Position numbers and translations under genes: made by a program. Shown here piece after piece: positions 4,248 through 39,197 of a stretch of DNA of 64,000 bases; the first letter of the stretch is position 1, and the number at the start of each line of letters is the position of its first letter. Location: NCBI RefSeq assembly GCF_000702665.1, contig NZ_JNJA01000007.1, forward strand, positions 124,001 to 188,000, written 5' to 3'. The notes beneath the pieces are model-generated. The model was not told the DNA's origin and made no database searches. It saw nothing but the letters and a program-made list of their open reading frames with translations. The stretch comes from Solidesulfovibrio alcoholivorans DSM 5433 (GTDB lineage: Bacteria; Desulfobacterota; Desulfovibrionia; Desulfovibrionales; Desulfovibrionaceae).

Positions 4248-6416
4248 TTGTTTCGTCTGCCGTTTCTGACCGCACTGGCCATCGTCCTCAATTTCACCAC
4301 CCCGGCCGCAGCCTCAACCTTTTATGTCGATGCGGCTTCCGCGGGCGGCAATGGCTCTTCCTGGGCGACGGCTTGCAAGACTGTGACCCAGGGGCTCTCC
4401 GCAGCCGGCTCCGGCGATACCGTTGAAATCGCGGGCGGCACGTACAGCGGGGAAACCCTCACGGCCAGCGTCGCCGGCGTCACCGTGACCGGCAGCACCG
4501 CAAGCGGCAAGAACGGCACGGTCACCATCCGGGGCGTCGAAGGCCAGCCCGTGCTCACCGTCAGCGCGCAGACCACGTGGCGGCGCATTGTGTTCGACGG
4601 CACGGGAAACACGGACCAATACACGGTGGTCGTCAGCATCACCGGTGGCGCGCCGACCTTCGAGCAGTGCACCCTCGGCCCAGGCATGCAGCTGCTGTCC
4701 GTCGGTGCCGGCGGGGCGACCTTTTCCCGCTGCACCATCACCGGCGTACGCCGTGGTACGGAATACGGCCAAGCCATTTCCATCGCCTCAACCACATCCC
4801 CTGTGACATTCAACTACTGCCTGTTCTCGGACATGCAGTTCAACTACATCCAACCCCACACGGCCTCCCGGATCGATTTCAACAACTGCCTGCTGGCCGG
4901 CTTTTCCGGATATGTGCTTTACGCGGGATCGAGCGCCTCCGTCACGGACGGCGTGCATTTCAAAAACTGCTTGCTCATGGCCAACGGCTTCAACTCCCCC
5001 TCCCTCATCCAAAGCCTGTCGGCCGCCGCTCCCGTGACCCTGACCCACTGCCTGACCCAGCCCCGGTCCCCGGTGAACATCACGCAAAGCACCCAGCTCG
5101 GCAGCAACGTGACCGAGGACTCCCCCCTCGTCCCCGGCTCGCCCGGCCTCACCCACGGCCGCCGGCAGGCGCTTGTCAACCTCGGCATCGACGACGCCAT
5201 ACACCTTGACATGTGGAGCCAGATGTCGGCCGTGGCCAACGCCTACGGCATCCGCACCACGCTGGCCCTGAACGCGACGGAGGACATCGGCAGCACGGAC
5301 TGGGGCATCATGCAGGGGTTGGTCAACGCCGGGAACGAGGTGGCCGCCCACACCGCCCACCATGTCTATCTGCCCGAAAAAAACCTCTTGAACGTGACCG
5401 CCGAAAATGCCGACGCCACCCTGACCGTGACAAGCACCGACGCAGCCGCCCAAACCCTGACGCTGGCCGTGGGCGGTTCGACCGTCGCCTCCTTCGACCT
5501 CGCCGCCACGGGCTACGACACCATCGGCGGACTGAGCAGCGCCATCAACGCCCTGGACGGCTTTGCCGCCAGCGCGATCGCCATTTCCGGCACGAGCTAC
5601 ACCACCGCCCCGGTTCTTTCCCGGGACCTCAACGCCACAAGCGTGACCCTTACGCCGAACGTACAAGTGTCCCTGGCGCGAAACGACACGCAGTTTTTCG
5701 CCGACGAGATCACCGCGCCCAAGGATACCATCCAAAGCCAGCTCACCCAGCCGAACTCGAGCACCCCCTACGTCTGCAACAGCTTCGTCTACCCCTTCCT
5801 CGGCGCGGACAATGACACCATCGCCGCAACCGGCGCGGCCGGGTTCACCGCGGCGCGCGGCGGCTATTACGGCTCCTACGCCATGGGCGGCTTCTGGACG
5901 TCCAGCACGAGCCCGGGCGGCTACGACACGCTCAACATCTGGTCCATCGAGCCGGGGCAGGCCTTCGGCAAGGGCCTGGACGCCGCCACCCTGGCCCGGC
6001 GCGTCTCGGCCTTGCTGGAGTGGGCCAAATTCACCGGTGCGGCCATCTCCCTCTACAGCCATGGCGAAGACGAATACAGCCTGAGCGACTGGACGGCGCT
6101 GATCGACGTCCTGCGCGCCGACACCGAAGTGACCTTCGCCACGCTCCAGAACATCCGCGAATACGTGGCCACGAACGGCCAGCTTTCCTCCGGCGCCACC
6201 TACGTACGCACGGAGCCCTGGCCCGACGTGGCCGATTACACGCCGACGGCCGACTCGGCCCTGCTGCGGGCCGGTGCCGTCTACACCACGGCCATGACCG
6301 ACTTCGGCGGCCATACCGTGCCGGCAGGCACCATCCCGGCCGTGGGTCTGTACCAGTGGCCGGGCAATGCCGTCCCGACGCCGACCCCTGGGTTGCTGCT
6401 TCTGCTGCTTCATTAA
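4248..6416 (+). CDS. Secreted beta-helix / polysaccharide deacetylase-like protein with C-terminal poly-Leu tail
   Basis: A 722-aa exported protein. Residues 1-22 are a signal peptide ending PAAAS. Residues 23-310 look like a right-handed parallel beta-helix (opening STFYVDAASAGGNGSSWATA, then Thr/Val-rich repeats). Residues 310-660 form a NodB-type deacetylase-like domain with metal-site motifs IDDA (about 313) and HTAHH (about 367), plus a late LYSHGEDEY. An insertion of about 110 residues after HTAHH is also present in the deacetylase at 16549-17697. The chain ends VPTPTPGLLLLLLH, a tail shared in form with three other exported proteins here. I chose TTG 4248 because GGGAGGGAG precedes it; ATG 4203, in frame, has no ribosome-binding site. 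It probably acts on a matrix polysaccharide. Confidence 0.72.
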   Translation: MFRLPFLTALAIVLNFTTPAAASTFYVDAASAGGNGSSWATACKTVTQGLSAAGSGDTVEIAGGTYSGETLTASVAGVTVTGSTASGKNGTVTIRGVEGQPVLTVSAQTTWRRIVFDGTGNTDQYTVVVSITGGAPTFEQCTLGPGMQLLSVGAGGATFSRCTITGVRRGTEYGQAISIASTTSPVTFNYCLFSDMQFNYIQPHTASRIDFNNCLLAGFSGYVLYAGSSASVTDGVHFKNCLLMANGFNSPSLIQSLSAAAPVTLTHCLTQPRSPVNITQSTQLGSNVTEDSPLVPGSPGLTHGRRQALVNLGIDDAIHLDMWSQMSAVANAYGIRTTLALNATEDIGSTDWGIMQGLVNAGNEVAAHTAHHVYLPEKNLLNVTAENADATLTVTSTDAAAQTLTLAVGGSTVASFDLAATGYDTIGGLSSAINALDGFAASAIAISGTSYTTAPVLSRDLNATSVTLTPNVQVSLARNDTQFFADEITAPKDTIQSQLTQPNSSTPYVCNSFVYPFLGADNDTIAATGAAGFTAARGGYYGSYAMGGFWTSSTSPGGYDTLNIWSIEPGQAFGKGLDAATLARRVSALLEWAKFTGAAISLYSHGEDEYSLSDWTALIDVLRADTEVTFATLQNIREYVATNGQLSSGATYVRTEPWPDVADYTPTADSALLRAGAVYTTAMTDFGGHTVPAGTIPAVGLYQWPGNAVPTPTPGLLLLLLH

Positions 6417-6486
6417 GCGCCTCCCCTCTCTGCCCGGCTTCCTCTTTTTTCCCTGCCTCCTTGCTATTTCGGAGAATCACTCTCCC

Positions 6487-6501
6487 TGGCATCACCCTTG
6501 C
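6487..6501 (+). promoter_or_regulatory. Candidate sigma-54 promoter upstream of the exopolysaccharide operon
   Basis: TGGCATCACCCTTGC contains GG (6488-6489) and GC (6500-6501) separated by exactly 10 bases, matching the -24/-12 consensus with TTGC at -12. It lies about 285 bases before the PilZ-GT2 start. In the same gap (6417-6785) TTTCA-N5-TGAAA at 6690-6704 is a small dyad that could be an operator. I see no supported gene in this gap. Confidence 0.45.
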
Positions 6502-6785
6502 TTTCTCTCCCGTGGCCTCTTTTAAAACGATACCCGCTCCTGGACCCCAAGGGCAGGCCTACCATGTGTGCATCGGAAAGAGATAAACGATCTCAGAAAG
6601 ATGATTCCGGGTTGTTGCAACAGGTCACGACGATTCCCGAAAAGAAGCGCCGCCCCGTCCGCCCGATACGGCAACAAAAGCGGATCAGTTTTTCATAATG
6701 TGAAACAAAACGGCCGACACTCGGATGCGGGCGGCAGCCCCACAGGCCAGCCTGCGGCCGCAACCTCCAGGGAGCCACGACGATC

Positions 6786-8447
6786 ATGGAAGTCTTTCCC
6801 CGAGAAAAACCCGACCGCCGCTTCCTGCCGGACATCCCTTCCAAGGGAGCCACACGCCGCACCTATGACACCCGCTACTTTTCCGAAGGCAAGGCGGACG
6901 TCTATTCCGAAGACGGCAAGTACCGCGACTGCTCGGGCAACGTGGTCAACCTGTCCCAGGGCGGCATGTTGCTTTCGCCGGACAAGAAACTGCGCGTAGG
7001 ACAAAAGGCCATGCTGCGTTTCTTCCTGAACGCCGGCACCATGCCCGAAGGCTACGAATCCTACCTCAAGCTGCCCGCCACCGTCGTACGCGTGGATTCC
7101 GCCACAGGCCACGCGGCCTTCCAATTTGAACGGACCATCACCGAGAGCCTGCGCCGTCGGCGCTGGCGCTATTTCGAGGCGGCGGCCCTGCTCGGCATCA
7201 TGCTGGCGCTCATCGGCGTCTGGTTCATCAAAAAGGAAAGCATCTTCTACTTCTGGTTCGACGTGCCGGTCTTCCTCTACGGCCTGTGCGCCCTGTTCTA
7301 CCTGCTGTCGCGGTTCTTCTTCGCCGCCCTGTACCGGCCCTATCCGGCGGACGTGAACTTCACCCCGAGCGTGAGCATCATCGTTCCCTGCTTCAACGAA
7401 GAGAAATGGATCGAGCGCACCGTGCGCGGCTGCCTCAACCAGCACTATCCCGAGGAACTCCTGGAAGTGATCGTGGTGGACGACGGCAGCACCGACGGTT
7501 CCGTGGCCGCGCTCAAGGCCGTGCGGGACAAAGTCTATGACGAAGTGGGCGAACGGCTCATCATCCACGTCTTCCCCGAGAACCGGGGCAAACGCCACGC
7601 CATGGCCGCCGGGGCGCGCCGGGCCAAGGGCGACGTCATCGTGTTCGTGGATTCCGACAGCTTCCTCCAGCCCGATTCCGTGCTCCAGGTGGTGCAGCCG
7701 CTCAAGGACCAGCGCGTGGGCGCGGCCACGGGCCGGTGCGAGGTGGAAAACAAGTGGACCAACATGCTCACGCGCATGCAGGCCGTGCGCTACTTCGTGG
7801 GCTTTCGCATCTTCAAGGCGGCCGAGAGCATCTTCGACGTGGTGACCTGCCTCTCCGGCCCCCTGGCCTCCTACCGCCGCGACGTGCTCATGCGCTACCT
7901 CGACACCTGGGAACACCAGACCTACCTCGGCCAGCCCGCCACCTTCGGCGACGACCGCAGCCTCACCAACTACGTCCTCGGCAGCCATTACGCCGTGTAC
8001 CAGCACACGGCCGTGACCCACACCATCGTCCCCTCGACCTACAGCAAGTTCTTCAGCCAGCAGATGCGCTGGAAACGGTCCTGGCTGCGGGAGAGCCTGC
8101 GGGCCTGCCTTTTCATGTGGAAAAAAGAGCCCTTCATGGCCATCTCCTTCTACCTGGGCTTCCTGCTGCCGGTCCTGGCCCCGGTGGTGGTGCTGCGGGC
8201 CTTCGTCTTCATGCCGTGGGCCTATGGCATCTGGCCGGTCACGTACATCGCTGGCGTGTTTTTCATGAGCATGCTCATGTGCACGTCCTACCTCTTCCTC
8301 AAACGCTCAAATCTCTGGTTCTACGGCGTGCCCTTCTGCTTCTTCTACCTGTTCGTCCTGTTGTGGCAGATCGTCTGGGCCGTGTTGACATTCTGGAAGT
8401 CTTCATGGGGCACCAGGCCCTCGCACTTTGATTCCGAAGCGCATTAG
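6786..8447 (+). CDS. PilZ domain-fused family 2 glycosyltransferase (exopolysaccharide synthase)
   Basis: A 553-aa membrane synthase. Residues about 23-120 form a PilZ c-di-GMP-binding domain (an Arg-rich start, RRTYDTR, and NLSQGG matching the D/NxSxxG motif). Two membrane spans follow (about 133-185). The GT-A catalytic domain (about 200-430) has DDGSTDGS, the DSD metal motif, a GDD acceptor-base motif and QQMRW (QxxRW), the hallmarks of processive GT2 enzymes such as PgaC, Alg8 and hyaluronan synthase. Further spans close the channel. It presumably polymerises and translocates a sugar polymer from UDP-sugars under c-di-GMP control, combining regulator and synthase in one chain. It heads a tight operon reaching 17697. 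The polymer identity is not determinable. Confidence 0.88.
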   Translation: MEVFPREKPDRRFLPDIPSKGATRRTYDTRYFSEGKADVYSEDGKYRDCSGNVVNLSQGGMLLSPDKKLRVGQKAMLRFFLNAGTMPEGYESYLKLPATVVRVDSATGHAAFQFERTITESLRRRRWRYFEAAALLGIMLALIGVWFIKKESIFYFWFDVPVFLYGLCALFYLLSRFFFAALYRPYPADVNFTPSVSIIVPCFNEEKWIERTVRGCLNQHYPEELLEVIVVDDGSTDGSVAALKAVRDKVYDEVGERLIIHVFPENRGKRHAMAAGARRAKGDVIVFVDSDSFLQPDSVLQVVQPLKDQRVGAATGRCEVENKWTNMLTRMQAVRYFVGFRIFKAAESIFDVVTCLSGPLASYRRDVLMRYLDTWEHQTYLGQPATFGDDRSLTNYVLGSHYAVYQHTAVTHTIVPSTYSKFFSQQMRWKRSWLRESLRACLFMWKKEPFMAISFYLGFLLPVLAPVVVLRAFVFMPWAYGIWPVTYIAGVFFMSMLMCTSYLFLKRSNLWFYGVPFCFFYLFVLLWQIVWAVLTFWKSSWGTRPSHFDSEAH

Positions 8448-8506
8448 ACAGGGCAACCGGCAGACAGGAACGCAGCTAACAAACCCCAAGCCCCAGGGGC
8501 GACGCC

Positions 8507-10477
8507 ATGAAAAAAACCATTCGCTACATCTTCCAATACGCCATCCTGGGCCTAGCGGCCTACCTGATCTATCAAACAGCCTTTACGCGCGGCACGCCGC
8601 CCGTCTTCGACCGGGCCAATTGGAGCCAGCGCGACGGTTTCGTGGCCCTGTCCGTGGGCGGCCTCACCGTCAGGGACGACGTGCCGGCGCTGATGACCAA
8701 GACCCGGCTGCGCGAGCACCTGCAGGCCCTGGCCAAGGCCGGCTACCGCACCATCACCTCCGATGACGTGCGCGCCTTCTACGACGAGGGCAAGCCCCTG
8801 CCGGAAAAGGCGCTCTACCTCATGTTCGAGGGTGGCCGCAAAGACTCCGTGCTCTTCAGCCAGCCCGCCCTTCAGGCAACCGGCTACCACGCCTCCCTCT
8901 ACCTCTACGGGGGCCACCTCAAGGGCTGGAACCGCTTCTTCGTCCGCGACAGCGAGGTCCGGAAAGTGGCGGAGAACCCCTTCTGGGACGTCAATTCCAT
9001 GGGCTACAATTGGAATCTCATCAACGTCACACCCCAGGGCGGCTACTCCCATTACCTGACCGCGCTCATCGACGGCCCGAACGGCAACCCCGTGGAAACC
9101 CAGGAACAGTTCGACGCCCGCGCTGCCGAGGATTTCCGCCTGGCCGCCAGCTCCATCAAGGAGGCCACAGGCATCGCCCCGGTGGGCTACCTGTTCACCC
9201 CGGCCAACACCCTGGGCGTGAGCATGCCGGAAGCCCTCGCCCGCCCGGTGGAACAAGACCTCGAAAAGCATTTCCCCATTGCCTTCACCCGGGTCGGCGA
9301 GAGCTACAACGACCGCGAAAAAAAACCCCGGGAGCTCACCCGGATGCAGATCGGCCCGGACTGGACCCCCGAACGCCTGCTCCTCGAGATCGAATCGCGC
9401 ATGCCCCGCTCGCGCTACCTCGACTTCGCCGATTCCGTGCGCCAGGGCCTGTGGCAGGTCACGACCGGCGGCATCGCCGCCGACGGAGCGCGCCTGATGC
9501 TGAGCCAGGCCGGTGGCAAGGCCCCCTTCGCCCGGCTGCGCGGCTCGGAAGGGTTCGAGAACTTCCTGTGCCAGGTCAAAGTCTACCCCACGGACGAAGG
9601 CGCGAGCCTCGTGTACCTGCGCTACCGCGACCCGGGTTCCTTCGTGCGCGTCCAGACCACCACGGACCGGGTGCTCGTCCAGGAAAAAAACGGCACCTCG
9701 CTCAACACCATCTTCCAGTACGTCCTGCCCCTGGATCACAAGGGCCCGGTGACGCTCGAGTGCTGCGTGAAGTCCAACCGCCTGCTGCTGCGTGTGGACG
9801 GCACGGTGGCGAGCACCTACCCCATCCCCCTGACAGCGGACACCAGCCGGGGCAGCTTCGCCCTTGGCTCGCTCGGCGAAAATATGCGTCAGCCGGCCCT
9901 GTTCGGGGACCTGCGCCTGACCGCCTTTCCGCCGCGCTGGGTCCAGACGGCGCGCGTGGCCAACGTGAACCTCGACGATTCCCTCACGCTCACGGCCATG
10001 GTGTTGCCGGCCGACACCCTGACCCGCGACCCGGTCGGCGACGCCGCCGCCATGGTGGCCGTGTCGTCCAAGGGCGTGAACGCCTATCTCGACATGACCG
10101 GCGCGGATGCGGCCCGGATCACGGAAACCGTGCGCTTCGTCAAGGACGCCCCGGCCTCCCTGGTCTTCGCCAAGCTGTTGCGCGGATTCGTGCTGTCCCT
10201 GGACGCCTTCCCCGAGCTGCGGGATCTTGCCGCGCTTCTGGACACGCTGCACGCCCAGGGCTTTTCCGCCGCCGTGCGCCTGACCGCCGCTGCGGCGGCC
10301 CGGCTGACCGCGAGCAACGTCGCCCTGGCGGCGGACTGGCTGCTCTTCGACGCGCCGCCGAGCGCGGAGGACGCCGAGGAAATGACCGCGCTCAAGAACC
10401 GGTTCGACAGGGCTCGCATGCTGTACCGCGAACCCGGCCCCGACGACGCCGCAATCTTCTATCAGGGAAAGAGGTAG
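8507..10477 (+). CDS. Membrane-anchored deacetylase-fold protein with degenerate active site
   Basis: A 656-aa protein with one N-terminal span (about 8-27) and a periplasmic remainder. The segment around residues 40-260 follows PgaB/PelA-type polysaccharide deacetylases: a HLQALAKAGYRTITSDDVRA start and a core strand. The usual TFDDG is replaced by LMFEGG (about 102-107), and no HxxxH metal motif is evident. Residues about 300-500 look like a beta-sandwich carbohydrate-binding module, and about 500-640 like a TIM-barrel remnant. The order resembles PgaB (deacetylase then glycosidase-like domain), so it may guide polymer through the periplasm rather than deacetylate it. It ends 7 bases before the TPR/barrel gene. 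The role is inferred from context and fold. Confidence 0.6.
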   Translation: MKKTIRYIFQYAILGLAAYLIYQTAFTRGTPPVFDRANWSQRDGFVALSVGGLTVRDDVPALMTKTRLREHLQALAKAGYRTITSDDVRAFYDEGKPLPEKALYLMFEGGRKDSVLFSQPALQATGYHASLYLYGGHLKGWNRFFVRDSEVRKVAENPFWDVNSMGYNWNLINVTPQGGYSHYLTALIDGPNGNPVETQEQFDARAAEDFRLAASSIKEATGIAPVGYLFTPANTLGVSMPEALARPVEQDLEKHFPIAFTRVGESYNDREKKPRELTRMQIGPDWTPERLLLEIESRMPRSRYLDFADSVRQGLWQVTTGGIAADGARLMLSQAGGKAPFARLRGSEGFENFLCQVKVYPTDEGASLVYLRYRDPGSFVRVQTTTDRVLVQEKNGTSLNTIFQYVLPLDHKGPVTLECCVKSNRLLLRVDGTVASTYPIPLTADTSRGSFALGSLGENMRQPALFGDLRLTAFPPRWVQTARVANVNLDDSLTLTAMVLPADTLTRDPVGDAAAMVAVSSKGVNAYLDMTGADAARITETVRFVKDAPASLVFAKLLRGFVLSLDAFPELRDLAALLDTLHAQGFSAAVRLTAAAAARLTASNVALAADWLLFDAPPSAEDAEEMTALKNRFDRARMLYREPGPDDAAIFYQGKR

Positions 10478-10484
10478 CCGCGCC

Positions 10485-13400
10485 ATGATCAAGAAACTTC
10501 TCCTGCTCGTGGCGCTCGTCCTGGTCGCCCCGTCCGCCTCCTTCGGAGCGGATGCCTCGGTGGTCACGCTCCTGCGCCAGTCCCAGCAGGCCGAGGCCCG
10601 GGGTCAAACCGACCAGGCCCTGGAGATGATCAACCAGGCCCTGAGCCAGGACCCGGCCTACCCTCCCCTGTGGCGGCAAAAGGCCAGCATCCAGATCACC
10701 GCCAAGGATTATGCCGGCGCCCTCGATACCCTGGCCGTGGTCCTCAAGGCCGAACCCGACGACCTCGAGACCAACGTGCTGGAAGTCAGGGCCCTGCTGA
10801 GCCTTGGCGACCAGGGCACGTCCCGGCTCGACCAGTACGTCTCCGGCATCAAGGAGGGCATGGCCGATTCCCTGATCGCGGATCTGCTGCCGCGCCATCA
10901 GGCCAAGGCCAACCTGGCGCGGTTCATGGCCGCGTGGAAACCCGCCTCGACCGAGGGCCAGACCGTGAAGCGTCTGGCCCTCGGCTACGCGCAAGACGAT
11001 GCCGGGGCCCTGCGCGAACTGGCCGACGCCCCGAGCCCGGCCTCGCAGAAAAACGCCTTCGCCGCGCTCCAGTTCTTCGCTGGCAAGGAAGCCCTGACCG
11101 GAAAGCGCCTGGAACTGGCCCAGAAGCTGCTCGACAAGGCCATGGCCAACGGCTACGACCCGGTGGCCGTGACCGGCGAACTCGGCTGGGTGCGCTACAA
11201 CCAGGGCCAGCCCACCGCCGCCGCCGACCTGTGGGAATCCAAATGGCGCGATGCCCCGGACGTGGGCCTCTGGGCCGGCTGGATCGCCGACGCCCGCCTC
11301 ACGGCCAAGGACTACTCCCGCGCCGCCGATTTTCTTGAAAAAACCCTGCAATTCTCCCCCAAGAACTCCCTCTATCAAGGCCAATACCTCTTTGCCCTGC
11401 GGGCATCCGGGCAAAACGACAAGGCGGACGCCTTCGAGGCAAGGCTGCGCGCCGATTCCGATCAGGACGGCCTGCACTTCGGCCTGGCCATGACCGCTTG
11501 GAGCCGGGGCGACGACGCCGGCGCGGCCGAGGAATTCCGCCAGATCAAGAATCGCCGTCCCTTCCGCGACCGCATCATCGAACTGGCCGACGCCATGGTC
11601 GGCAGCATCGGCGCCAAGGGCGATCCGACCAAGGCCATCGCCTCCATCGAAAACCTGATCGAGGGCCTCGACGTGCGCGGGAACATCCTGCGCGACATCG
11701 GCTGGCGGTTGTGGGCGGCCAAGCGCCCGGACATGGCCCTGTCCTTCTGGCGGCAGTCCCTCAAGGAAGGACTGCCCGCCGGCGATCCGCTGGTGGCCCG
11801 CGTGGTGCCGCTTCTGATCGAGACCGGCCGCACCGGCGAGGCCATGACGCTGCTTAAGGCCAACGCGCCCGAGGTCACGCCCCTGGGGCTGGCCTGGAGC
11901 CTTGCCGTGGCCAACCGCTGGGACCTCGTGGGCAAGGTGCTGCCCGCCGTCCCGGCCGGCCCCTACCCGGATCTGTTCGGGGCCATGGCCGCCCTGCAAG
12001 GCGGGCAGCCCCAGGTCGCCCTGGACAAGATGCGCGTCGTGTCCACCCTGCCGGCCGGCGGTTTCGGCCAAGTGGCGGTGGTCGGCTTTTCCCCGGAAGG
12101 CCAGGTCGTGCGCGGTTCGCTGTCCCCGGCACTGGCCGACGAGGTCTACCTGCGCATCGCCCGCACCCTGGTCGAATACCAGATGGCGCAGGGCTTTTTC
12201 TTCCTGACGCCGCCTGCCTGGGCCGCCGGGGTTTCGCCCCGGGCCATGGCCCCGGTCTGGGCCCAAGCGGGCCGGGTATTGTGGACTTCCGGTCAGTACG
12301 ACCAGGCGGCCGTGTTCCTGGAAAACGCCCTGGCCGCCGATCCCGGCCAGACCCAGGCCATGCTCTATCTGGCCCTTTACGCCAAGCGCCAGGGCGACAA
12401 CGCCAAGGCGCAAGGCCTGCTCGACCGGGCCCTGGCCAAGGCCACGCCCTTCGACCGCAGCTACGCCCTGGGCGAATTCGCCCTGCTCGACGGCAATGCC
12501 CAAACCGCCCTGACCCATTTCCAGGAAGCCGTGTCCCTGGCCCCGAACGACACCGCCCTGCGCCTTCGCGTGATCGGGCTGCTCGCGGCCGCTCGCCGCT
12601 ACGACGAAGCCCGCCGGATGGCCGGCTGGTTCGACGCCATGGTCGCCAAGGGCGACCGTGCCGTCTTCAGCGCGGCGGCCGCCGCCAAGCTCGAGCTTGG
12701 CGACGCCAAGGGGGCCGAAGCCCTGTACCGAACCCTGCTCGCCACCCGGCCCGCTTCCTTGGACTACCTTTCGGGCCTGGGCCTCGCATTGAACCGCCAG
12801 AGCCGCTACGCCGAGACTGTGGCCGCCCTGTCCCGCACCTACGCCGACACGGCCTCGCCCTTGCTCGGCGGCGTGCTGTGCGAGGCGCTGCTCTCCCTTG
12901 GCGAATACCAGGAAGCCCTGAACCAGGCCGAAATCGGGCTGGCCAAGCACCCCGAGAACAAGGAACTGCTGCGTCAGGCCGCCGAGGCAACCGAGTTCGC
13001 CAAGGACCCGGCCCTGTGCGAGGCCTATGCCAGGCGCTACCTGGAACTCGACCCCGACTCGTCCATCGTGCAGAACATGTTCGCCCAGGCCCTGCTCGAC
13101 CAGAAAAAGTACGACGAGGCCCAGGCCCATTACACGGCCCTGCTTAAGAACAACCCGGCCTACCTCCCGGCTGTGCGCGGCAACTTCAACATCTACCAAT
13201 ACACCGGCAAGGCGGCCAAGGCCTACAAGGCGGCCCAGGAACTCATGAAACTGGCCCCGGACAACGCCACGCTGCGTCTGCAGTACGCCGTGGCCGCCGC
13301 CGCGGACCAGGACTTCCGCCCCGCCTACCCGGCGCTGCACACCATCCGGGACTTCGGCCCGGGCAGCCCGGTGTTGTGCCTGTATTACGCCGACGTGCGC

Positions 13401-15344
13401 GACGCCGAAACGCCCGGCAAGGTGCGCCTGTCGCAGATGGCCGACCACCTGCGGGCCATCGCCGCCGCCGGCGGCAGCTTCCTTGGTGCGGACGACCTGG
13501 CCAACCGGCCGGCCGGCGACGCCGCCCTGCAAAAACGCGACACCAACCTCGCGCCCCAGGTCTTCCTCATCGTGGACCGCACCGACGCGGCCGTGCTCAA
13601 GAAGATCGACGCGCTGCTGGCCGAGGTCGGAGGCAAGGCCATGCTGGTCGTCGGCGGCGAATCACTGACCGCCGGCACGCCCTATCTGCCGGATCTGGCC
13701 ATGGTCCGCGCCCTGGCCGGCAACGGCCGCTGGTCCCTGGCCCTGACCGACCACAACCCGCCCCGCGCGGACGGCCAGACGCCCGGCGCCCTGAACCTGT
13801 GGAACACCTGCGGCGCACAGGCCTGTCCGCCCGACGAAACGCCGGGTTCGCGGCTGGCCGCACGGCTGCATGACCTGGACCCCCAGGGCGTGATCTTCGG
13901 CGACGCCCGCCCGGTCTTCTTCTACCCCGGCGGCGACGCGCCCCAGGACATCCTGGGCGCAACCGACGCCGGCCGGGAAGCCTACCGGAAACTTGTGGCG
14001 GACACCTTCCCCATGGCCTTCGAACTCAACAGCGAAGGCTACTGGACCCCGTTGTCCGATCCCCACCGCATCGCGGCCAAGGCCGTGGCCCCGTCCCTGG
14101 ACACGGCCGGGCTCACCCGCTACCTGGAGCAGGTCAACCCCATGCGCCAGGTCTCCCTGGAACTGGCCAAGGTCTACTCCTGGCAGGAACAGCTCGGACA
14201 GGCGGAGAACTATTTCAAGGAAGCCGACGAGCTCAAGGCCAATCCTGCCGACCTGACCTACCACAAGGCCGTCAACGCCTACTACATGTACGACGACCCC
14301 GTGGCCGTGACCCGGGCCCAAAAGGCCGTGGCCGTCGATCCCGATGCCGAACGCACCCATATCCAGCTGGGCCGGGCCGAACTGCGCACCAGGCCCAAGG
14401 CAGAAGCCAGCATCAACACCTGGTGGGACAGCGACAACCGCCGCTACTGGTGGTACGGCCTGCGCGGCGAAGTCCACGTCCTCGACAGCCTCGTGGTTTT
14501 CGCCAAGGGCGGCCGGGTGGAATGGTCCATCGACAGCTACCAGCGGCGCGGCTACATGCTGCGGGCCGTCTCCAACACCATTGCGAACGGCTACCTGAGC
14601 GCCTCCGACGTCTACAACGTGCTCAATTCCCGCCGCACCCAGTACCTGGACGGCGAAGACCTCGTGGTCGGGGCGCGCTGGTTCTTCCATCCGGAGTTCT
14701 GGCTGGAAGCGCAAGGCCAGCTGACCAACACCGACGGCGGCCCCAGCACCTGGCTCAACGGTCAGGCCACCCTGCACGGTCCGTTCGCGCCCAAGGGCGT
14801 GCCCATCGACGGCACCTGGGACGTCCAGGCCGCCCACGAGCGCATCGACACCGTGGAGGCCATCTCGGAACAGATCATGGCCAACCGGTTGAGCCTTTTT
14901 ACCCACAACCGGATTTTCAACTACTACGACCTGTTCCTGAACCTGCACGGCATCTCGCGCAGCGACGGCAACAACTCCGGATTCGTCGACGGCCGCCTCC
15001 TGGCGCGGCTGTTCGAATACCCGCTGTTTTCCGTGGGCTACGCCTTCCAGTTCGCCAACAGCGACCGCAATCCGACCCAGTACTGGGCGCCCCTGGACCT
15101 GGCTACCCACCTGGCCTACGCCACCGTCGGCTACGCCCCGACGCGCTGGTTCAACATCAACGGCAGCGTGGGCTACGGCCCCTCGCGCGACCGCAGCAAC
15201 GACTGGCGCAACATCTGGCGCGTCAACGCAGGCATGGACATCACCCTCAAAGAGCGGTTAAAGTTCTCGGTGAAGTACTCCTATTTCAGTTCCCCCACCT
15301 ACAACCTCAACGAAGCATGGGCAGGCATAAACTACACGTTCTAG
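10485..15344 (+). CDS. TPR / outer-membrane beta-barrel exopolysaccharide export protein (PgaA-like)
   Basis: A 1619-aa protein with a signal peptide (about 1-22). A very long TPR superhelix (about 24-970) is followed by a deacetylase-like segment (about 995-1190) lacking a clear metal triad. More TPRs follow (about 1210-1305), then a C-terminal beta-barrel (about 1311-1619) with alternating aromatic strands and a terminal Phe (INYTF), the usual outer-membrane barrel signature. TPR plus barrel is the architecture of PgaA, the PNAG exporter, but this protein is about twice as long and has a deacetylase-like insert. It would carry the polymer across the periplasm and out through the outer membrane. 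It overlaps the next gene by 28 bases. Confidence 0.8.
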   Translation: MIKKLLLLVALVLVAPSASFGADASVVTLLRQSQQAEARGQTDQALEMINQALSQDPAYPPLWRQKASIQITAKDYAGALDTLAVVLKAEPDDLETNVLEVRALLSLGDQGTSRLDQYVSGIKEGMADSLIADLLPRHQAKANLARFMAAWKPASTEGQTVKRLALGYAQDDAGALRELADAPSPASQKNAFAALQFFAGKEALTGKRLELAQKLLDKAMANGYDPVAVTGELGWVRYNQGQPTAAADLWESKWRDAPDVGLWAGWIADARLTAKDYSRAADFLEKTLQFSPKNSLYQGQYLFALRASGQNDKADAFEARLRADSDQDGLHFGLAMTAWSRGDDAGAAEEFRQIKNRRPFRDRIIELADAMVGSIGAKGDPTKAIASIENLIEGLDVRGNILRDIGWRLWAAKRPDMALSFWRQSLKEGLPAGDPLVARVVPLLIETGRTGEAMTLLKANAPEVTPLGLAWSLAVANRWDLVGKVLPAVPAGPYPDLFGAMAALQGGQPQVALDKMRVVSTLPAGGFGQVAVVGFSPEGQVVRGSLSPALADEVYLRIARTLVEYQMAQGFFFLTPPAWAAGVSPRAMAPVWAQAGRVLWTSGQYDQAAVFLENALAADPGQTQAMLYLALYAKRQGDNAKAQGLLDRALAKATPFDRSYALGEFALLDGNAQTALTHFQEAVSLAPNDTALRLRVIGLLAAARRYDEARRMAGWFDAMVAKGDRAVFSAAAAAKLELGDAKGAEALYRTLLATRPASLDYLSGLGLALNRQSRYAETVAALSRTYADTASPLLGGVLCEALLSLGEYQEALNQAEIGLAKHPENKELLRQAAEATEFAKDPALCEAYARRYLELDPDSSIVQNMFAQALLDQKKYDEAQAHYTALLKNNPAYLPAVRGNFNIYQYTGKAAKAYKAAQELMKLAPDNATLRLQYAVAAAADQDFRPAYPALHTIRDFGPGSPVLCLYYADVRDAETPGKVRLSQMADHLRAIAAAGGSFLGADDLANRPAGDAALQKRDTNLAPQVFLIVDRTDAAVLKKIDALLAEVGGKAMLVVGGESLTAGTPYLPDLAMVRALAGNGRWSLALTDHNPPRADGQTPGALNLWNTCGAQACPPDETPGSRLAARLHDLDPQGVIFGDARPVFFYPGGDAPQDILGATDAGREAYRKLVADTFPMAFELNSEGYWTPLSDPHRIAAKAVAPSLDTAGLTRYLEQVNPMRQVSLELAKVYSWQEQLGQAENYFKEADELKANPADLTYHKAVNAYYMYDDPVAVTRAQKAVAVDPDAERTHIQLGRAELRTRPKAEASINTWWDSDNRRYWWYGLRGEVHVLDSLVVFAKGGRVEWSIDSYQRRGYMLRAVSNTIANGYLSASDVYNVLNSRRTQYLDGEDLVVGARWFFHPEFWLEAQGQLTNTDGGPSTWLNGQATLHGPFAPKGVPIDGTWDVQAAHERIDTVEAISEQIMANRLSLFTHNRIFNYYDLFLNLHGISRSDGNNSGFVDGRLLARLFEYPLFSVGYAFQFANSDRNPTQYWAPLDLATHLAYATVGYAPTRWFNINGSVGYGPSRDRSNDWRNIWRVNAGMDITLKERLKFSVKYSYFSSPTYNLNEAWAGINYTF

Positions 15345-16381
15345 GCAGACCACGGGCCGTCCGCCAGGGGATTACCCTCCTGGCGGCGGCCCTTGCGTGC
15401 GCGTTCGTGCTTCTGTCTTTTTTCCCGGCGCGGGCCTGGGCCCTCACCGCCTGGATCGCCGACTGGGATCTCGCCCGGGGGCTGGCCGAGTTCCGGTCCC
15501 ATCCGGGCCTTTTTGATTCCATCCGGGTCTTTTCCGCCAATTTCGACGAAAAGGACCGGCCGTCCCTGGCCCCGGACTGGGCCAGAATCCTCGGCCGGGA
15601 CGCCTCGGGCGTGTTCGGGGCCACGCCCGTCTTCCTGACCGTGGTCAACGACGTGGTCGCGGCCTCGGGCAAGGGCCTGAAACTCAAGGACCCGCCCCTG
15701 GTGTCGCGCCTGACGGCCACGCCCGAAGCCCGGGCCCGGCATATCGACGCCCTGGTGGAGCTGGCCAAGCGCCATCATTTCCAAGGCATCGAAATCGATT
15801 ATGAAAATGTGGCCGAAGCGGATTGGCCCAATTTCCTGACTTTCGTGGCCGCGCTGCAGGCGCGCACCGCATCCGAGGGATTGGCCCTGGCCGTGTTGCT
15901 CCAGCCCCAGCGCCGCTACCTGGCCACGCCCCTGCCGCCCGGGCCGCAGTATGTGCTCATGGGCTACAACCTGTTCGGCTTCCATTCGGGCCCCGGCCCC
16001 AAGGCCACGCCGGAGTTCCTGGCGGCCCAGGCCGCGGCGTTGCGCGCCATCGGGGCGCTCGGTGCCACCACGCTGGCCCTGGCCACGGGCGGCTTCGACT
16101 GGACCGGCTCGCAAAAGGCCAGCCAGTTGACGGAATCCGAGGCCCGGACCCTGCTCGCCAAGACCCGCGCCACGCCCACGCGCTCGCCCGGCAACGGCTA
16201 TCTTGTGAGCCACTACCGCGACGACGCCGGCAAGGACCACGAGGTCTGGCACGCCGACGGACAGACGATGGACTTGTTGTGGCAGGCCGCGCAGGCGGCG
16301 GGATTCAGCAAGCTCGCCATCTGGCGGCTCGGCGGCAACTCGCCATCCCTCTTCACCTTCTTGTCCGGGCTCAAACGCTAG
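15317..16381 (+). CDS. Secreted GH18-like glycoside hydrolase
   Basis: A 354-aa product with an N-terminal hydrophobic export segment (about 18-40, ending PARAWA) and a TIM-barrel of the GH18/YaaH type. The core strand reads QGIEIDYEN (about 156-164), matching DGxxxDxE with the catalytic Glu present and the first Asp changed to Gln. LMGYNLFGFH and AIWRLGG are the late barrel strands expected in this fold. It probably cleaves or trims an N-acetylhexosamine polymer in the periplasm, the role played by the C-terminal hydrolase domain of PgaB or by PelA. The ATG at 15317 overlaps the upstream gene, implying translational coupling, with only a weak ribosome-binding site. Confidence 0.7.
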   Translation: MGRHKLHVLGRPRAVRQGITLLAAALACAFVLLSFFPARAWALTAWIADWDLARGLAEFRSHPGLFDSIRVFSANFDEKDRPSLAPDWARILGRDASGVFGATPVFLTVVNDVVAASGKGLKLKDPPLVSRLTATPEARARHIDALVELAKRHHFQGIEIDYENVAEADWPNFLTFVAALQARTASEGLALAVLLQPQRRYLATPLPPGPQYVLMGYNLFGFHSGPGPKATPEFLAAQAAALRAIGALGATTLALATGGFDWTGSQKASQLTESEARTLLAKTRATPTRSPGNGYLVSHYRDDAGKDHEVWHADGQTMDLLWQAAQAAGFSKLAIWRLGGNSPSLFTFLSGLKR

Positions 16382-16548
16382 CGCCGGCATTGTCTTCCCG
16401 CATGGCGTTGCTATCTTAAGGAAACGTCGCGTGCGCACGGTCACGCTTTCAAAGACGAAAGCGACCCGAATGGGACCGTCATGCGCCGGATGTAAAGGCG
16501 AAATGAACCCTCGGCACTTCCCGGGGGCTGACCATGAGAGGAAATATG

Positions 16549-28721: not shown

Positions 28722-29744
28722 ATGCAAGCGCTGTTCCATGCTATAATGGCGACAATCACCATCATATTGACACTGACATCTTCACATGCCCACGCCGACA
28801 CGATACCATACAACAGCGACTACAATGCGATAAAAGAACAGCTCTCGACACCGCAAGCCGCTGCCGCATACATGGCCGCCTACTTTACCTACGATACGAA
28901 TCGCCCTGGATACATGCCCTATTCTCCGGCCACGTTGAACACCTTGAAAACAGGTGATTGCAAGGATTATGCGACATTTTTCGCTTCCATCCTGGTCTCG
29001 CACGGCTATGCGATCAAGAAGTACGCGTTCCGTTACAACACTTCAAACAACTACGGGCATATCGTCACCCTCTTTACGGATACGGACGGCAAGCAATACG
29101 TCGCGAGCAACCACGGAAATGCGCAGGAAATCTTCGGCCCGGTCACGAGCCTCGATGAGGCGGGGAGCTTCCTCCTGGCGGGCGGCGTCCTTCCTTCCGG
29201 CTCCGTCGCGGACGACTGGCTGGAATACCCGCCGGAATTCACCGGCTACCTGCAACACTCGAACGGCTTTCTCTACAATGCCGACTACCAGACGGCCAAA
29301 AGCCAGCTCCAGTATTTCCAGCACCCGGCCAGCTACATGACGGCGTTTTTCACGGCGCAAACGCACCCCGGGGCCAATGCCTACGCTCCGGCGGAACTCA
29401 ACAGCCGCAAGACCGGCGACGCCAAGGACTTTGCCGTGTTCAACGCCCAAAACGTCTATGGCTCCTCGATCCACTCGTTCCGATGCAACCAGCGCACCAA
29501 CGCCGGCCACGTCATTTCCTCGAACACGTACAATTCGAAATACTACGTGCAAAGCAACCAGTACTTTTTCGGTCCCCTCGACGCGCTTACGGACGTCATC
29601 CCCCTGCTCAAGGAAAACGGGCACATCCCCGCCGACTGCACGGCCGACAACTGGCAATCGTATTCGAGCACCTATACCGGGCCCTTTCCCGTCGCTACGG
29701 TCCCTTCGCCCCCGGCTGCCTCGCTGTTGCTGCTCGAGCAATAG
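28722..29744 (+). CDS. Exported protein with tandem transglutaminase-like repeats and C-terminal poly-Leu tail
   Basis: A 340-aa exported protein with a signal peptide ending SHAHA. Two homologous halves follow. The first has TGDCKDYATFF (Cys about 87) and YGHIV, matching the Cys-His pair of transglutaminase-like cysteine peptidases. The second has TGDAKDFAVF, with the Cys changed to Ala, and AGHVI. Thus one half keeps its nucleophile and the other looks catalytically dead. The C-terminus is TVPSPPAASLLLLEQ, matching the Pro-rich plus poly-Leu tail of three other exported proteins in this window. The first 250 bases are richer in A+T than the surroundings. A good GGAG precedes the ATG. Cross-linking, amidase or peptidase activity cannot be separated from sequence alone. 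Confidence 0.68.
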   Translation: MQALFHAIMATITIILTLTSSHAHADTIPYNSDYNAIKEQLSTPQAAAAYMAAYFTYDTNRPGYMPYSPATLNTLKTGDCKDYATFFASILVSHGYAIKKYAFRYNTSNNYGHIVTLFTDTDGKQYVASNHGNAQEIFGPVTSLDEAGSFLLAGGVLPSGSVADDWLEYPPEFTGYLQHSNGFLYNADYQTAKSQLQYFQHPASYMTAFFTAQTHPGANAYAPAELNSRKTGDAKDFAVFNAQNVYGSSIHSFRCNQRTNAGHVISSNTYNSKYYVQSNQYFFGPLDALTDVIPLLKENGHIPADCTADNWQSYSSTYTGPFPVATVPSPPAASLLLLEQ

Positions 29745-30617: not shown

Positions 30618-32177
30618 ATGAGAATAAAAACATTGAATATTCTTTCTTCCATCGTATTCGCTCTCTCCATCATGTGCATACCTCTCCCGGCAAAAGCACA
30701 GACGCCGTTCGTCTTCGACCTGCCCTGGGACCACAGTGCCGCGAAAACGTACATCCAATTTCTCGGCGTCGGCGCGATCACCATCGGCTATTACTACGAC
30801 AGCAGCGGCGCACAACAAACAATCTCCTCCAACACGCCCTATTGCTTGGCGAACCTGATCAGCCCCACCCCCATCGCCACGAGCGTTCCCACCGGCAAGC
30901 CGGCGATCATGATCACCAACGCGCCAGCCGCGCGCCTCTACATCAACTACGGCACAAGCGGCCTCACCATTCCCAACGCCAGCTACACGCCGGACGCGGC
31001 CGGCGCCTTCGTCGACGGCTCACCCACCGACCCGAACTACACCGCCCGGTATCAATATACCGAAATCACGGCTTCCTCGGGCACGCAGACATGGCTTGAC
31101 CTAAGCTACATCGACTTCGTCTCCATTCCGCTGACCATCGCGGTGAAAAACGGCCCGACCCTCGCCAACAACCCGCAGACCACCTCGGTGACGGCCAGGG
31201 TCCTGGCCCTGGCGGCGGCGGGATCGAGCAGCCCGACCAACGCCAACGTCATCCCCGCGGGCAGCCTGCCCTCGGGCACGAACGCCTGGAACGCCTCCTT
31301 CGCCCGGGTGCTCGGCACGAACCTCGCGGCCAAGGCCGGCTTCACCTATTACCACGACTGGTCGGCCTACCTCGCCGGCCTGGCCACGACGAGCACCACG
31401 GCTACCCTGGACGACTGCTTCGTGGGCGTCGGCGCAAGCGACGACCCCCTCCAGCAGCAGCAAACCTACAGTTATACCGCGGACTTCCTGAGCACCTGCG
31501 ACAACCCCTCGGACACCTCGTCCGGATGCGTCAGCCTGACGGCAAACAGCGGCTCCGGATACGCGGGAGCGGTGAACTTCTGCGTCGGCAACGGCAACAC
31601 GGGAACAGGCGTCGGCGACAGCAATAAAGTCTGGATCATGTATTCCGATCTGCAAAGCAACACCGTGGGTGTCTATTCCAACAACACCCCGTATTATTAC
31701 CAGATCGGCTCCGGAGCCGTCGTCCACGAAACCGCCATCGTCAACGATTATTTCGGACGGGTCGTGGGCGACATTCTTGGCGGCCTGAGCTTCGGCGTCT
31801 TCGGCAGCACCACCCAGTATGTCAAGACCGGCAGCGGTGACCCCATTCCGGCCCAGGCCATCGGCCAGATCCCAAGCCTCTATTGGTGGGCCGGCAAAAA
31901 TGCGACGTATGCCACCCCGCCCGCGCAGTCGATCCTCGGCCAGGGCTACATCTTCGGCAAGCTCCAGACGAACGGCAACAACTACGACGATTACGCCGCC
32001 AGCTTCAGCACCCTGACCACCGGCTACGGCATTCCCTTCGGGGACCGACTGGGCCTCAATACGATAGAAATGAATTACCCGCTGCTGACCGGCGAATACG
32101 TCCTGATCACCATCGGGCCGGACACGCCGCCGCCGCCGACCGCACCGGTGGACCTGCTGCTGCTCGGAAACAATTGA
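30618..32177 (+). CDS. Exported GH64 / thaumatin-like protein with C-terminal poly-Leu tail
   Basis: The 519-aa product has a signal peptide ending PAKAQ. Its body matches the GH64 beta-1,3-glucanase/thaumatin-like superfamily. ARLYINYGTSGL, then YTEITASSG with WLDLSYIDFVSIPL about 17 residues later, correspond to the Glu and Asp catalytic pair of laminaripentaose-producing enzymes. GYGIPFGDR near the end matches the family's late YxFPYDD motif. It may bind or cleave beta-glucan outside the cell. The C-terminus is PPPPTAPVDLLLLGNN, the tail type shared with three other exported proteins here. ATG 30618 is chosen for AGGA eight bases upstream; ATG 30609 is an alternative. Confidence 0.68.
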   Translation: MRIKTLNILSSIVFALSIMCIPLPAKAQTPFVFDLPWDHSAAKTYIQFLGVGAITIGYYYDSSGAQQTISSNTPYCLANLISPTPIATSVPTGKPAIMITNAPAARLYINYGTSGLTIPNASYTPDAAGAFVDGSPTDPNYTARYQYTEITASSGTQTWLDLSYIDFVSIPLTIAVKNGPTLANNPQTTSVTARVLALAAAGSSSPTNANVIPAGSLPSGTNAWNASFARVLGTNLAAKAGFTYYHDWSAYLAGLATTSTTATLDDCFVGVGASDDPLQQQQTYSYTADFLSTCDNPSDTSSGCVSLTANSGSGYAGAVNFCVGNGNTGTGVGDSNKVWIMYSDLQSNTVGVYSNNTPYYYQIGSGAVVHETAIVNDYFGRVVGDILGGLSFGVFGSTTQYVKTGSGDPIPAQAIGQIPSLYWWAGKNATYATPPAQSILGQGYIFGKLQTNGNNYDDYAASFSTLTTGYGIPFGDRLGLNTIEMNYPLLTGEYVLITIGPDTPPPPTAPVDLLLLGNN

Positions 32178-34616: not shown

Positions 34617-34628
34617 CCGTCGGCCCGC

Positions 34629-35810: not shown

Positions 35811-35891
35811 GGCGTTCTCCTTGCGGGGCAATGTCGTGCGGCCCCGGAACCTACAGCCAACGGCCCACCGAAACAAGAGCCTGCCCCATCT

Positions 35892-35942: not shown

Positions 35943-35973
35943 ACTCCCCTCTCTTCCTCTCCTCACTCCCCCT

Positions 35974-36612: not shown

Positions 36613-36773
36613 ACGGGAGATCTCCGCGTTTGTTGTGGATTTGACGCGCGGCGCGGCATGCGTTTCCCGCCCGTATCGTATTTTCGCAATACATCCACCT
36701 GCATTCAGACGCAAATATATTGGAAACGTAACTCCTGACTGCCAATCAGAAAAAAGGGAGAAAGCCGCACGTG

Positions 36774-39197
36774 CTAGTTCGCCAGCAATAATTGAACAGA
36801 AGGTTGGATGTCTGACCCGATAGAGTCGAGTAAATCTTTTTGGAGTAAATTAAATACGGGCTCATAGCGCAGGGGGTTTATGTTTGCCGTATCGCCCAAG
36901 GATAATCTGTGAAGGCAGGTGTACATTGTTCCTGCGTAGGATTTGAAATATGTAGATGAATTGAAGGCTGTGTCACTTGTTGTCTCAGAGTCTAGCACAA
37001 AGCTTGCTGAGACATATTTGTCCCAAACGCCTTTATCGCCCTTGTAGCAACCGTTTGCTATTTTTTCATGGTCATAATCAACAAATAATCTATATGGCAA
37101 TTTGTAAGGGTGTTCTGATCCTGTCGATATTATGTACTGAGTTTCGTTTGAAGAGTTGGATAATATTTTTATCGAAGGATTGACATGGCTCAATAGGCCC
37201 ACGTTGGTAAAATCAAAAGTATAGCTTGGCATAAAAAAATACTTGAATAAATAATCGTCGTCGAAACTGCAAAAGTAAGCACTTCCTGTCGGTTCCGCAC
37301 CTCCGCTTAAATATCCCATTTCGGAAATCGATGCATTTGAAACATCGAAGACTCCATTTCCTATCGAGTCAGGTATGTTGTTGTGAATGTTGTGCATTCC
37401 TGCAACATAAAGGATATATTTGTTTGAATATTTTAAATAGTTTTTGGAGAATTTGACATTAAGCCATCGGAGCCAAGGATTTTTCGTATGGTGCTTATCA
37501 ATTTCACTCGCCCCAACCAAATTGAGCAGCCTCTCCCAATATTCTGCATCAAAGTCTTTGGTGTTGATGTATGTCCACCGCCTACTCGTGTTGTTTTCGT
37601 CTATATCCTGGTCCGTATCAAATTTGTCGACATTGTCCCAATTCAAATCCGCAGCACCTTGGGTCCCAAGATCTTTCACCAGCCTAGAGAGGCCTTCGTC
37701 ATCCGAAGCGGGACTCCCATGATGCGGAGTATCCAATGTAATGAGTTTCCTATAATTATTAAAACCCTGCTCTTCAATCAAATCCCGTGCAAGTAGGCCA
37801 CCCATAGAGTGGGCGAGGAATATAAGTTTGCTCGACGATAAGCCATAAGATAGGTCTTCGTTTGCTTTAGATGTGTTTATAAGCAGGTTTTTCAACACTA
37901 AAGCATTGAAACAAATATGTTTATAAGTCGGATAATGATATAAATATATATGGAATTTATCATACAACTTCGAACTCGATAGATAGAAATCCAAAAAATG
38001 CTGCCAATAATTGAGCTCTGAGTTTTCCCATAACAGTAATGCAGACTGCTGGCGATCTTTCAATCCTGTATTGTCGCCTTGCCATCCATGAATTAACAAA
38101 ATAGGAATTCGATGTTTGGTATAGCTATGTATTTTTGTTGCATATTCAGTTTGTTGCCATTGGGAATTGATATTTTTATTAATTATTCTGTCAAAATCAA
38201 TGATGCGATGTGTAGTGGCAGTGCCTACCTGTAGGCGTAATCTGTCAAGGTAATTGTTGATGTTTCCTAAATATTCTTGGTTTTCAAAATAATTGTACAT
38301 GTTGTTCCGAATATTATTTGAATCAATCTTCGTATCATTAAGTGTTGCGGATGAAACAATAGACTCAGGAGCCAGTGCTTGAATTTGATCGTAGGCAGCA
38401 TTGACCCCTGCCAGTTTGTTATCGCCGTCAATAAAAGTCGCAAAAAAAACAGAAATCTCCTTATTAAGATACGCATCAGTAAGAGGAAACTCAAATCTTG
38501 AGATTTGGGTTCCTCCGGAATAGGAGCCGGAATCGATGCGTTCAGTTCCGACGTAGACATCGTATGAGAGCTGTTTGTCAAACTCTGTATTCTCTTTAAA
38601 ATTTACAACCATCTTTTTGCCGTCATAATCTATACCGCTTGTGTTCAGGTTCACAGACAGCAAAAGTGGATCCGCCCCATTTTCCCACTCGCAAATATAG
38701 TATAGCTCTCTCGCGCAGGGCAGGTCATTCCATTGTCCAGATTTTGTAAAATAGGCCTGCAGGCAGTCTTCGTTATTCCCCTGGTAGCTATTCGGTTCTC
38801 CTGGATACCAATTGGTGTAACTCCATGATTCGCCAGTTAGCCATTGCCATGTTCCTTCATTCTCTGCATCAGAAGCGCCTATCCATATGTTGTCTGACAA
38901 GGTAGAAAGATTGTTTATTAAGAAATTATTCTCACTATCCGATGTTATTGTCGCAAGATGCCCGCCTTGTGACTCGCAATCTGTTTTGGCATCTGTCCAT
39001 GTTTTTACTGTTGTGAATATCTTGTATTGGTGTCCATTCTCTTCATTTAATATAACACTGTCGGCAAAGCATGGCGAGCTAAGAGTGGTGATAAAATAGA
39101 GTGCAAAACATGCACAATTTTTAATCCACGGCAGATTCAAGGCATTATTTGTATGGAAAATTTTGTTTCCGTATTCGTGACGCAAAACTTTTCTCAT
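36774..39197 (-). CDS. Exported C-type lectin / lipase fusion with C-terminal poly-Leu tail
   Basis: An 807-aa exported protein with an N-terminal export segment ending SPCFA. Residues about 50-175 are a C-type lectin domain with WIGASDAENEGTWQWLTGE, the calcium/sugar motif EPN and WND, and the framework cysteines; EPN often indicates mannose/GlcNAc-type ligands. A linker follows. Residues about 380-640 form an alpha/beta-hydrolase with oxyanion segment LIHGWQGDN, nucleophile AHSMGG (the AxSxG form of Bacillus lipases) and LDTPHHGSP. The C-terminus DIQPSVQLLLAN resembles the Leu tails of three other exported proteins. The gene is markedly AT-rich with A/T-ending codons against GC-rich neighbours, suggesting transfer. 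ATG 39197 is chosen because GGAG lies six bases upstream. Confidence 0.72.
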   Translation of the reverse strand: MRKVLRHEYGNKIFHTNNALNLPWIKNCACFALYFITTLSSPCFADSVILNEENGHQYKIFTTVKTWTDAKTDCESQGGHLATITSDSENNFLINNLSTLSDNIWIGASDAENEGTWQWLTGESWSYTNWYPGEPNSYQGNNEDCLQAYFTKSGQWNDLPCARELYYICEWENGADPLLLSVNLNTSGIDYDGKKMVVNFKENTEFDKQLSYDVYVGTERIDSGSYSGGTQISRFEFPLTDAYLNKEISVFFATFIDGDNKLAGVNAAYDQIQALAPESIVSSATLNDTKIDSNNIRNNMYNYFENQEYLGNINNYLDRLRLQVGTATTHRIIDFDRIINKNINSQWQQTEYATKIHSYTKHRIPILLIHGWQGDNTGLKDRQQSALLLWENSELNYWQHFLDFYLSSSKLYDKFHIYLYHYPTYKHICFNALVLKNLLINTSKANEDLSYGLSSSKLIFLAHSMGGLLARDLIEEQGFNNYRKLITLDTPHHGSPASDDEGLSRLVKDLGTQGAADLNWDNVDKFDTDQDIDENNTSRRWTYINTKDFDAEYWERLLNLVGASEIDKHHTKNPWLRWLNVKFSKNYLKYSNKYILYVAGMHNIHNNIPDSIGNGVFDVSNASISEMGYLSGGAEPTGSAYFCSFDDDYLFKYFFMPSYTFDFTNVGLLSHVNPSIKILSNSSNETQYIISTGSEHPYKLPYRLFVDYDHEKIANGCYKGDKGVWDKYVSASFVLDSETTSDTAFNSSTYFKSYAGTMYTCLHRLSLGDTANINPLRYEPVFNLLQKDLLDSIGSDIQPSVQLLLAN

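Follow-up and report, generated by a model that had tools for sequence, protein, structure and literature searches.

Four exported proteins encoded in the window (the whole 64,000-nucleotide stretch of DNA analysed, positions 124001–188000 of contig C7 of genome G000) share a short C-terminal tail that behaves like a C-terminal address label not previously described. The tail comprises approximately 10–16 residues arranged as a linker that contains Pro, in many tails a polar or small residue, usually 3–6 Leu and 0–3 further residues, the last of which is mostly Gln or Asn. It probably functions as a tag of one kind or another, and our main reading, to which we assign a probability of roughly 0.43, is that it is a modular targeting tag by which proteins pass the outer membrane or are displayed at the surface, with the type II secretion system (T2SS) as the probable reader. 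The genes and tails are collected in Table 1, together with further tailed proteins of the same genome (5,128,906 bases in 65 contigs, with an estimated contamination of 7.78%).

Table 1. Tailed proteins of the window (P0001–P0004) and of other contigs of the same genome.
Feature	Position	Strand	Description	C-terminus	Homologues
P0001	4248..6416	+	exported, beta-helix + polysaccharide-deacetylase-like; start as in the initial annotation	VPTPTPGLLLLLLH	L166–L168, with tail
P0001 tail	6372..6413	+	14 codons, directly before the stop
P0002	28722..29744	+	exported, transglutaminase-like	VPSPPAASLLLLEQ	L045, L046
P0002 tail	29700..29741	+
P0003	30609..32177	+	exported, GH64-like	PPTAPVDLLLLGNN	L051, L056 tailed; L048, L049, L052 Cys-helix-Arg; L050, L053 without end signal
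P0003 tail	32133..32174	+
P0004	36774..39197	-	exported, AT-rich gene, C-type lectin + lipase-like; start as in the initial annotation	IQPSVQLLLAN	paralogue L002 and homologue L058, tailed
P0004 tail	36777..36809	-
Pectate-lyase-like (PF12708)	C2:8974			..FPAQAVFTLLLQ
CBM2 cellulose-binding protein (PF00553)	C2:19324			..LPPAPLLLLLSGQ
Lipase-like protein	C2:285420		1020 aa; LCAT, Lipase_2, PGAP1	..VLNLLLQ
75-residue ORF	C6:83992		no Pfam match	..VPGILFLLQ
404-residue protein	C6:139510		no Pfam match	..VLDLLLLSQ
P0004 paralogue	C48 (3.3-kb contig)		two Leu, outside the strict-motif count	..VAPAINILLQ

The initial annotation had described a shared Pro-rich and Leu-containing C-terminal tail on four unrelated bodies, each with a signal peptide, and on no other exported protein of the window. 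Translation returned the same C-termini on the same strands, and among the genes called within the 64-kb window the tail regex was matched by P0001–P0004 only. The Pfam assignments differ between the bodies, with a polysaccharide deacetylase barely above cut-off and a beta-helix below it in P0001, a transglutaminase-like assignment for P0002, GH64 for P0003 and a C-type lectin plus PGAP1-like lipase for P0004. Signal peptides were detected in P0001, P0002 and P0003 by a crude predictor, which missed that of P0004, where the longest ORF begins ~160 codons too early; here the signal peptide was read by eye from the sequence, and the paralogue on contig C48 scores one with the predictor. The claim of four signal peptides was thus borne out by prediction for three proteins and by eye for the fourth. 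Adjoining P0001 is a polysaccharide locus (6786–17697, plus strand) with genes for PilZ plus family-2 glycosyltransferase, a protein of 656 aa that Pfam does not match, a TPR protein of 1619 aa whose end looks barrel-like by eye, a GH18-like protein (below cut-off) and a deacetylase; in G133, G143 and G109, the P0001 and deacetylase homologues likewise lie ~10 kb from each other.

The frequency of the tail was determined in 2.04 Mb of the 5.13-Mb genome (~40%), comprising the window, C48, the whole of C6, the greater part of C9, C1, C2 and C3 to 420 kb, and 20 kb from the start of each of C4, C5, C7, C8 and C10–C20, with 1970 ORFs called. The strict motif was defined as a LIVMF run with at least three Leu, followed by 0–3 end residues, of which only the first could be Lys or Arg, and with a Pro at most 14 residues upstream. 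It was observed at the C-terminus of 8 of 373 exported proteins against 1 of 1597 others (Fisher p = 1.2e-5); these counts are approximate, as exported proteins were called by the crude predictor (a hydrophobic stretch after a basic residue, without a further helix), with P0004 assigned to this class by hand and with AT-rich genes added as gap-filling ORFs, by which false ORFs enter the other class. When only ORFs with a score above 10 or a length of at least 200 were considered, the proportions were 8/358 and 1/1418 (p = 1.9e-5), and without the four window proteins they were 4/369 and 1/1597 (p = 0.005). The lone match in the other class, the 404-residue protein, has a signal-peptide score that prints as 2.0, barely below the 2.0 cut-off. 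As an internal control, motif ends were found in 152 of 73,008 sequence windows inside exported tail-less proteins (0.21%) versus 2.1% of true ends. A lack of genome-wide enrichment among exported proteins had been named as evidence against a tag; enrichment was found in this ~40% sample. The strict motif was present in none of 390 calls (71 exported) in a small 400-kb sample of G121, of the same genus, and in two of 588 ORFs from 51 loci of named genomes, one of them the L214 homologue.

Not all nine tailed families are fold-unrelated, since P0004 and the C2:285420 protein share a PGAP1/lipase-like part, and contig C48 might represent contamination. The 75-residue ORF is the second of an adjacent ORF pair (C6:83102–84219) that is possibly one broken gene. 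Elsewhere in the genome, two 237-aa ORFs (C3:257811–258524 and C3:410797–411510) are apparently identical where compared.

A total of 25 tails was collected in these nine families, 10 from G000 and 15 from homologues in other genomes. The last residue was Gln in 17 tails, Asn in 4 and His, Glu, Asp or Pro in one each; this usual Gln/Asn end (21/25), like the occurrence of tails outside the window, extends the initial annotation. The end residue played no part in the motif definition, and Gln or Asn ended 9 of the 10 own tails versus 52 of 341 tail-less exported proteins (p = 7e-7), and all six own tails outside the window (p = 1.7e-5). Among the other proteins of the sample, 53 of 1365 carry such an end. 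Over the nine C-terminal residues of the 25 tails, the leucine codons were mixed (CTG 42, TTG 22, CTC 17, CTT 11, TTA 3, CTA 2), and a shared DNA repeat was rejected on this ground, as the initial annotation had argued. Stop-codon readthrough was also rejected: no common continuation was seen past the stops, and all three stop codons are used by the 25 tails. TAG terminates 6 of nine own tail genes, 537 of 1607 genes with sampled stops and 123 of 315 exported genes. A scan of nine tails against NCBIfam, with E up to 10, gave no match, and no such tail is described in the titles and abstract openings among the matches listed by searches of a mainly open-access literature, the best 10 of 2,819 in one case.

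Tailed homologues in other genomes exhibited 31–73% identity to the own proteins, with changed Leu codons and linkers. Those of P0001 (53–56% identity) end in NLLLLLQ in G133, LLLLLLQ in G143 and LMLLLLQ in G109; the G102 homologue, whose end precedes the linker, is tail-less, and so are shorter deacetylase relatives of a single domain, seen in ten loci that include the own genome. For P0002, the homologues end in ..PVSLLLLDN (G041) and in the weak variant ..PLQLLFEE (G088), and the P0004 homologue of G041 ends in ..GNALLLLD. Two P0003 homologues in G097 end in MLLLLSGNN and LDLLLLNQ, with a broken copy on a third contig, while those of G075 and G069, the latter apparently without a signal peptide, stop at the domain end, where the linker and tail of the tailed relatives begin. 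In the genus g8 (G074, G007, G093), the P0003 homologues carry ~150–200 extra residues followed by Ser-Gly-Cys or Gly-Gly-Cys, a helix and a basic end. These natural ends score 16.7 bits (L048) against the MYXO-CTERM cut-off of 20, with no match for L049 and L052, 10–15.8 bits in all three against the JDVT-CTERM cut-off of 27, and below cut-off in all three for the choice-of-anchor U domain; an identification of the g8 ends as MYXO-CTERM was withdrawn on the first of these results. The scan of named genomes for P0003 confirmed no relative. As a separate observation, all seven g8 C-type lectin homologues (L059–L063, L080, L081) end in PIP..xWLL, a helix and a basic end, PEP-CTERM-like by eye; the two that were scanned reached no PEP-CTERM cut-off.

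Among the pectate-lyase-like homologues, those of G133, G143 and G109 retain LLL and the Gln end, that of G097 ends in GLLLP, and weak partial homologues from other genera are tail-less. In the cellulose-binding family the tail is kept in G133, G031 and Desulfovibrio sp. DV (L214, 73% identity), and G007, G074 (ORFs cut in their loci) and L228 read ..PLR; a G109 homologue broken into pieces was left out of the count. Genes resembling the neighbours also occur around L214, and G000 therefore probably belongs to the Desulfovibrionaceae. L214 is the only tail carrier among the 51 named-genome loci of the family, and most of the rest run into other sequence or stop. Ten of them (L217–L223, L225, L246, L264), nine titled Bacteroidota and L225 titled Limnohabitans, resembled type IX secretion (T9SS) cargo by eye; of the four scanned, L217, L220 and L225 were above the cut-off of TIGR04183 (T9SS type A sorting domain) and L219 was below it. 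The T9SS model matched none of the four window proteins and none of the nine tails scanned.

Loss from homologues had been named as a second sign against a tag: the tail is kept in close homologues (same genus, g41 and g31) and absent in g8, G075, G069 and G102. It resembles a modular C-terminal tag because some homologues end at the domain or in other signals, a membrane helix and a basic end are missing from the tail, and exosortase is absent from the G000 genome. Its attachment beyond the domain end, its recurrence despite turnover of its own sequence, and the other or missing end signals of homologues give it the look of a targeting tag, and we infer that it is kept by selection. The tail is modular, is carried by diverse proteins and is kept in homologues, as expected of a C-terminal targeting tag in general. 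The recognition tag put forward in the initial annotation is supported in part, by the shared tail, the enrichment in exported proteins, the conservation in homologues and the lack of an NCBIfam match; for its reader, the T2SS is a candidate.

Several known signals share features with the tail. MYXO-CTERM/myxosortase signals are also C-terminal tags on exported proteins, and their carriers are described as thought to reach the surface via the T2SS (PMC11980579); however, they need an invariant Cys, a membrane helix and an Arg-rich end, and the tail has none of the three. The g8 homologues of P0003, rather than the tail, have a similar Cys-helix-Arg end below the model cut-off, and as a link to the T2SS this amounts to no more than a resemblance. 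In PEP-CTERM/exosortase signals, a Pro motif likewise precedes a hydrophobic stretch, and the carriers are reported as assorted exported proteins encoded mostly in single-gene operons (PMC1569441), but the tail lacks the helix and basic end, in keeping with the initial annotation, and exosortase is missing in 7 of 8 tail genomes. GlyGly-CTERM/rhombosortase is reported to tag the C-terminus of T2SS substrates, VesB among them (PMC6219818, PMC13393428), and has its own Gly/Ser motif, hydrophobic region and basic end, all absent from the tail. The T9SS sorting domain ends cellulose-binding-family homologues in other phyla, but its model spans 72 positions against ~15 residues. The signals of T2SS exoproteins may share their purpose with the tail; their known determinants are described as composite loops (PMC7949064), unlike the short linear tail, and one Ig-fold signal is reported to require the PDZ domain of GspC (PMC12369372).

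In G000, GspK, GspC and GspD of a T2SS were identified on contig C5 within 16 kb, and GspK lies at most ~17 kb from GspD in G000, G133, G143, G058 and G016. The GspD profile (TIGR02517) was above cut-off in 37 of the 148 genomes searched, most of which had no tail check. The top seven scores among the 148 (536–558 bits) all belong to tail-bearing genomes (G031, G000, G133, G109, G041, G143, G088), followed by G050 and G009 (533 bits), G016 (528) and G058 (512). GspD was above cut-off in 7 of the 8 tail-bearing genomes. The eighth, G097, with three tails and a 160-contig assembly, yielded no GspD above cut-off and no GspC, which may reflect an assembly gap, a recent loss or a true counter-example. 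Among genomes with tail-less homologues, G075, G069 and G102 have no GspD above cut-off, and g8 (G007, G074, G093) scored 402–415 bits, above cut-off. The association between tail and GspD was 7/8 versus 0/3 with g8 left out (p = 0.024), 7/8 versus 0/6 if g8 is taken to be without a T2SS of this type (p = 0.005) and 7/8 versus 3/6 with g8 counted as T2SS-positive (p = 0.24), p values that concern kin genomes and the first system tested, exosortase being the only other one searched. The g8 genomes were set apart as another T2SS type because of their lower GspD scores, no PF11356 GspC match in the three and the distant placement of G007 GspD in the GspD tree, which holds no other g8 sequence. 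In this tree (25 of 30 sequences, the five left out including G000, G109 and G143), four tail genomes fall into two clades, one with G058 and one with G009 and G050; their fork is weakly resolved, beside twelve other rows, and a T2SS type of their own is neither proven nor excluded.

The tailed proteins have the N-terminal signal peptide without another membrane helix that characterizes T2SS substrates (crude predictor; P0004 by eye), and a T2SS is encoded in G000 and was not found in tail-bearing G097. In the T2SS-bearing G058, G009, G050 and G016, no tail was seen among the few proteins checked (two weak beta-helix homologues in G016, one lipase each in G009 and G050, one deacetylase in G058). 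LLLQ followed by a stop was counted over 148 genomes, and three tail genomes (G000, G133, G143) have the highest counts in the genus. Nevertheless, the counts within the genus (G000 25, G133 28, G143 27, G109 13, G097 17; G025 8, G058 12, G080 14, G121 18) do not separate T2SS genomes, with G109 and G097 not distinct from G121 and G080; the reversed pattern exceeds them in all nine genomes (34–58). In g41, the counts of G041 (11) and G088 (13) are hardly above that of G069 (11).

Within the genus, GspC is present in G000, G058, G109, G133 and G143 and absent in G025, G080, G097 and G121; G041 yielded no GspC match and G088 one below cut-off. Its open frames span 194–231 aa in the six tail-bearing genomes with a match and 269–354 aa in most other above-cut-off matches, and are also short (172–212 aa) in G058, G009, G050 and G011. 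The GspC of this T2SS seems too short for a PDZ domain, and on the basis of this length the GspC PDZ was not favoured as tail reader; the periplasmic part of the secretin or the pseudopilus tip is therefore supposed in its place. In the proposed mechanism, the signal peptide would take the protein across the inner membrane, where it would fold. The free tail would then be recognised in the periplasm by an outer-membrane export machinery, most probably the T2SS of the lineage, which would carry the protein to the cell surface or out of the cell. A narrower proposition, which we hold to be unlikely, is that a T2SS whose GspC has no PDZ domain recognises its substrates by a short linear tail at the C-terminus.

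Alternatively, the tail could mark proteins for surface retention or processing by a T2SS-independent reader in the outer membrane or periplasm, the Leu run being anchored or clipped at the outer membrane. This is possible, if on the doubtful side: G097 carries tails without a detected T2SS and the g8 homologues end in anchor-like helix and Arg signals, but a search covering exosortase and T2SS parts found no candidate gene, and GspD occurs in 7 of 8 tail genomes. A truncated or degenerate PEP-CTERM/exosortase signal appears improbable. Exosortase (PF09721) is absent from G000, G097, G109, G133, G143, G041 and G088, although it is present in tail-bearing G031, and also in G080 and G121 of the same genus; the nine scanned tails lack a helix, a basic end and an NCBIfam match, and orthologues keep the tail, mostly with the Gln/Asn end. 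These points stand against the likeness of Pro-x-Pro plus Leu to the start of such signals, the PEP-CTERM-like ends seen by eye in the g8 lectin homologues (the two scanned being below every PEP-CTERM cut-off) and the polysaccharide synthesis locus beside P0001.

Hydrophobic C-termini are known substrates of periplasmic tail-specific proteases of the Prc/CtpA type, which would make the tail a turnover signal; since the tails end mostly in Gln/Asn and not in small apolar residues, we regard this as quite improbable. Leucine is common and strict matches number just 9 in 1970 calls, as chance or compositional Leu runs could produce, yet the enrichment, the Gln/Asn ends and above all the tails kept in homologues largely contradict such an origin, which is very improbable.

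Under the preferred reading of a targeting tag read by the T2SS, the tail bears on how this system selects its cargo, an open question: the signals apparently have no common linear sequence and are described as widely held to be structural (PMC7949064). If another machine reads the tail, it would still be a C-terminal tag, one that has neither the helix nor the charged end found in the CTERM signals compared. If the reading is true, a machine held to have no common linear signal would have one, and a short portable tail would make the question of cargo choice directly testable in one lineage.
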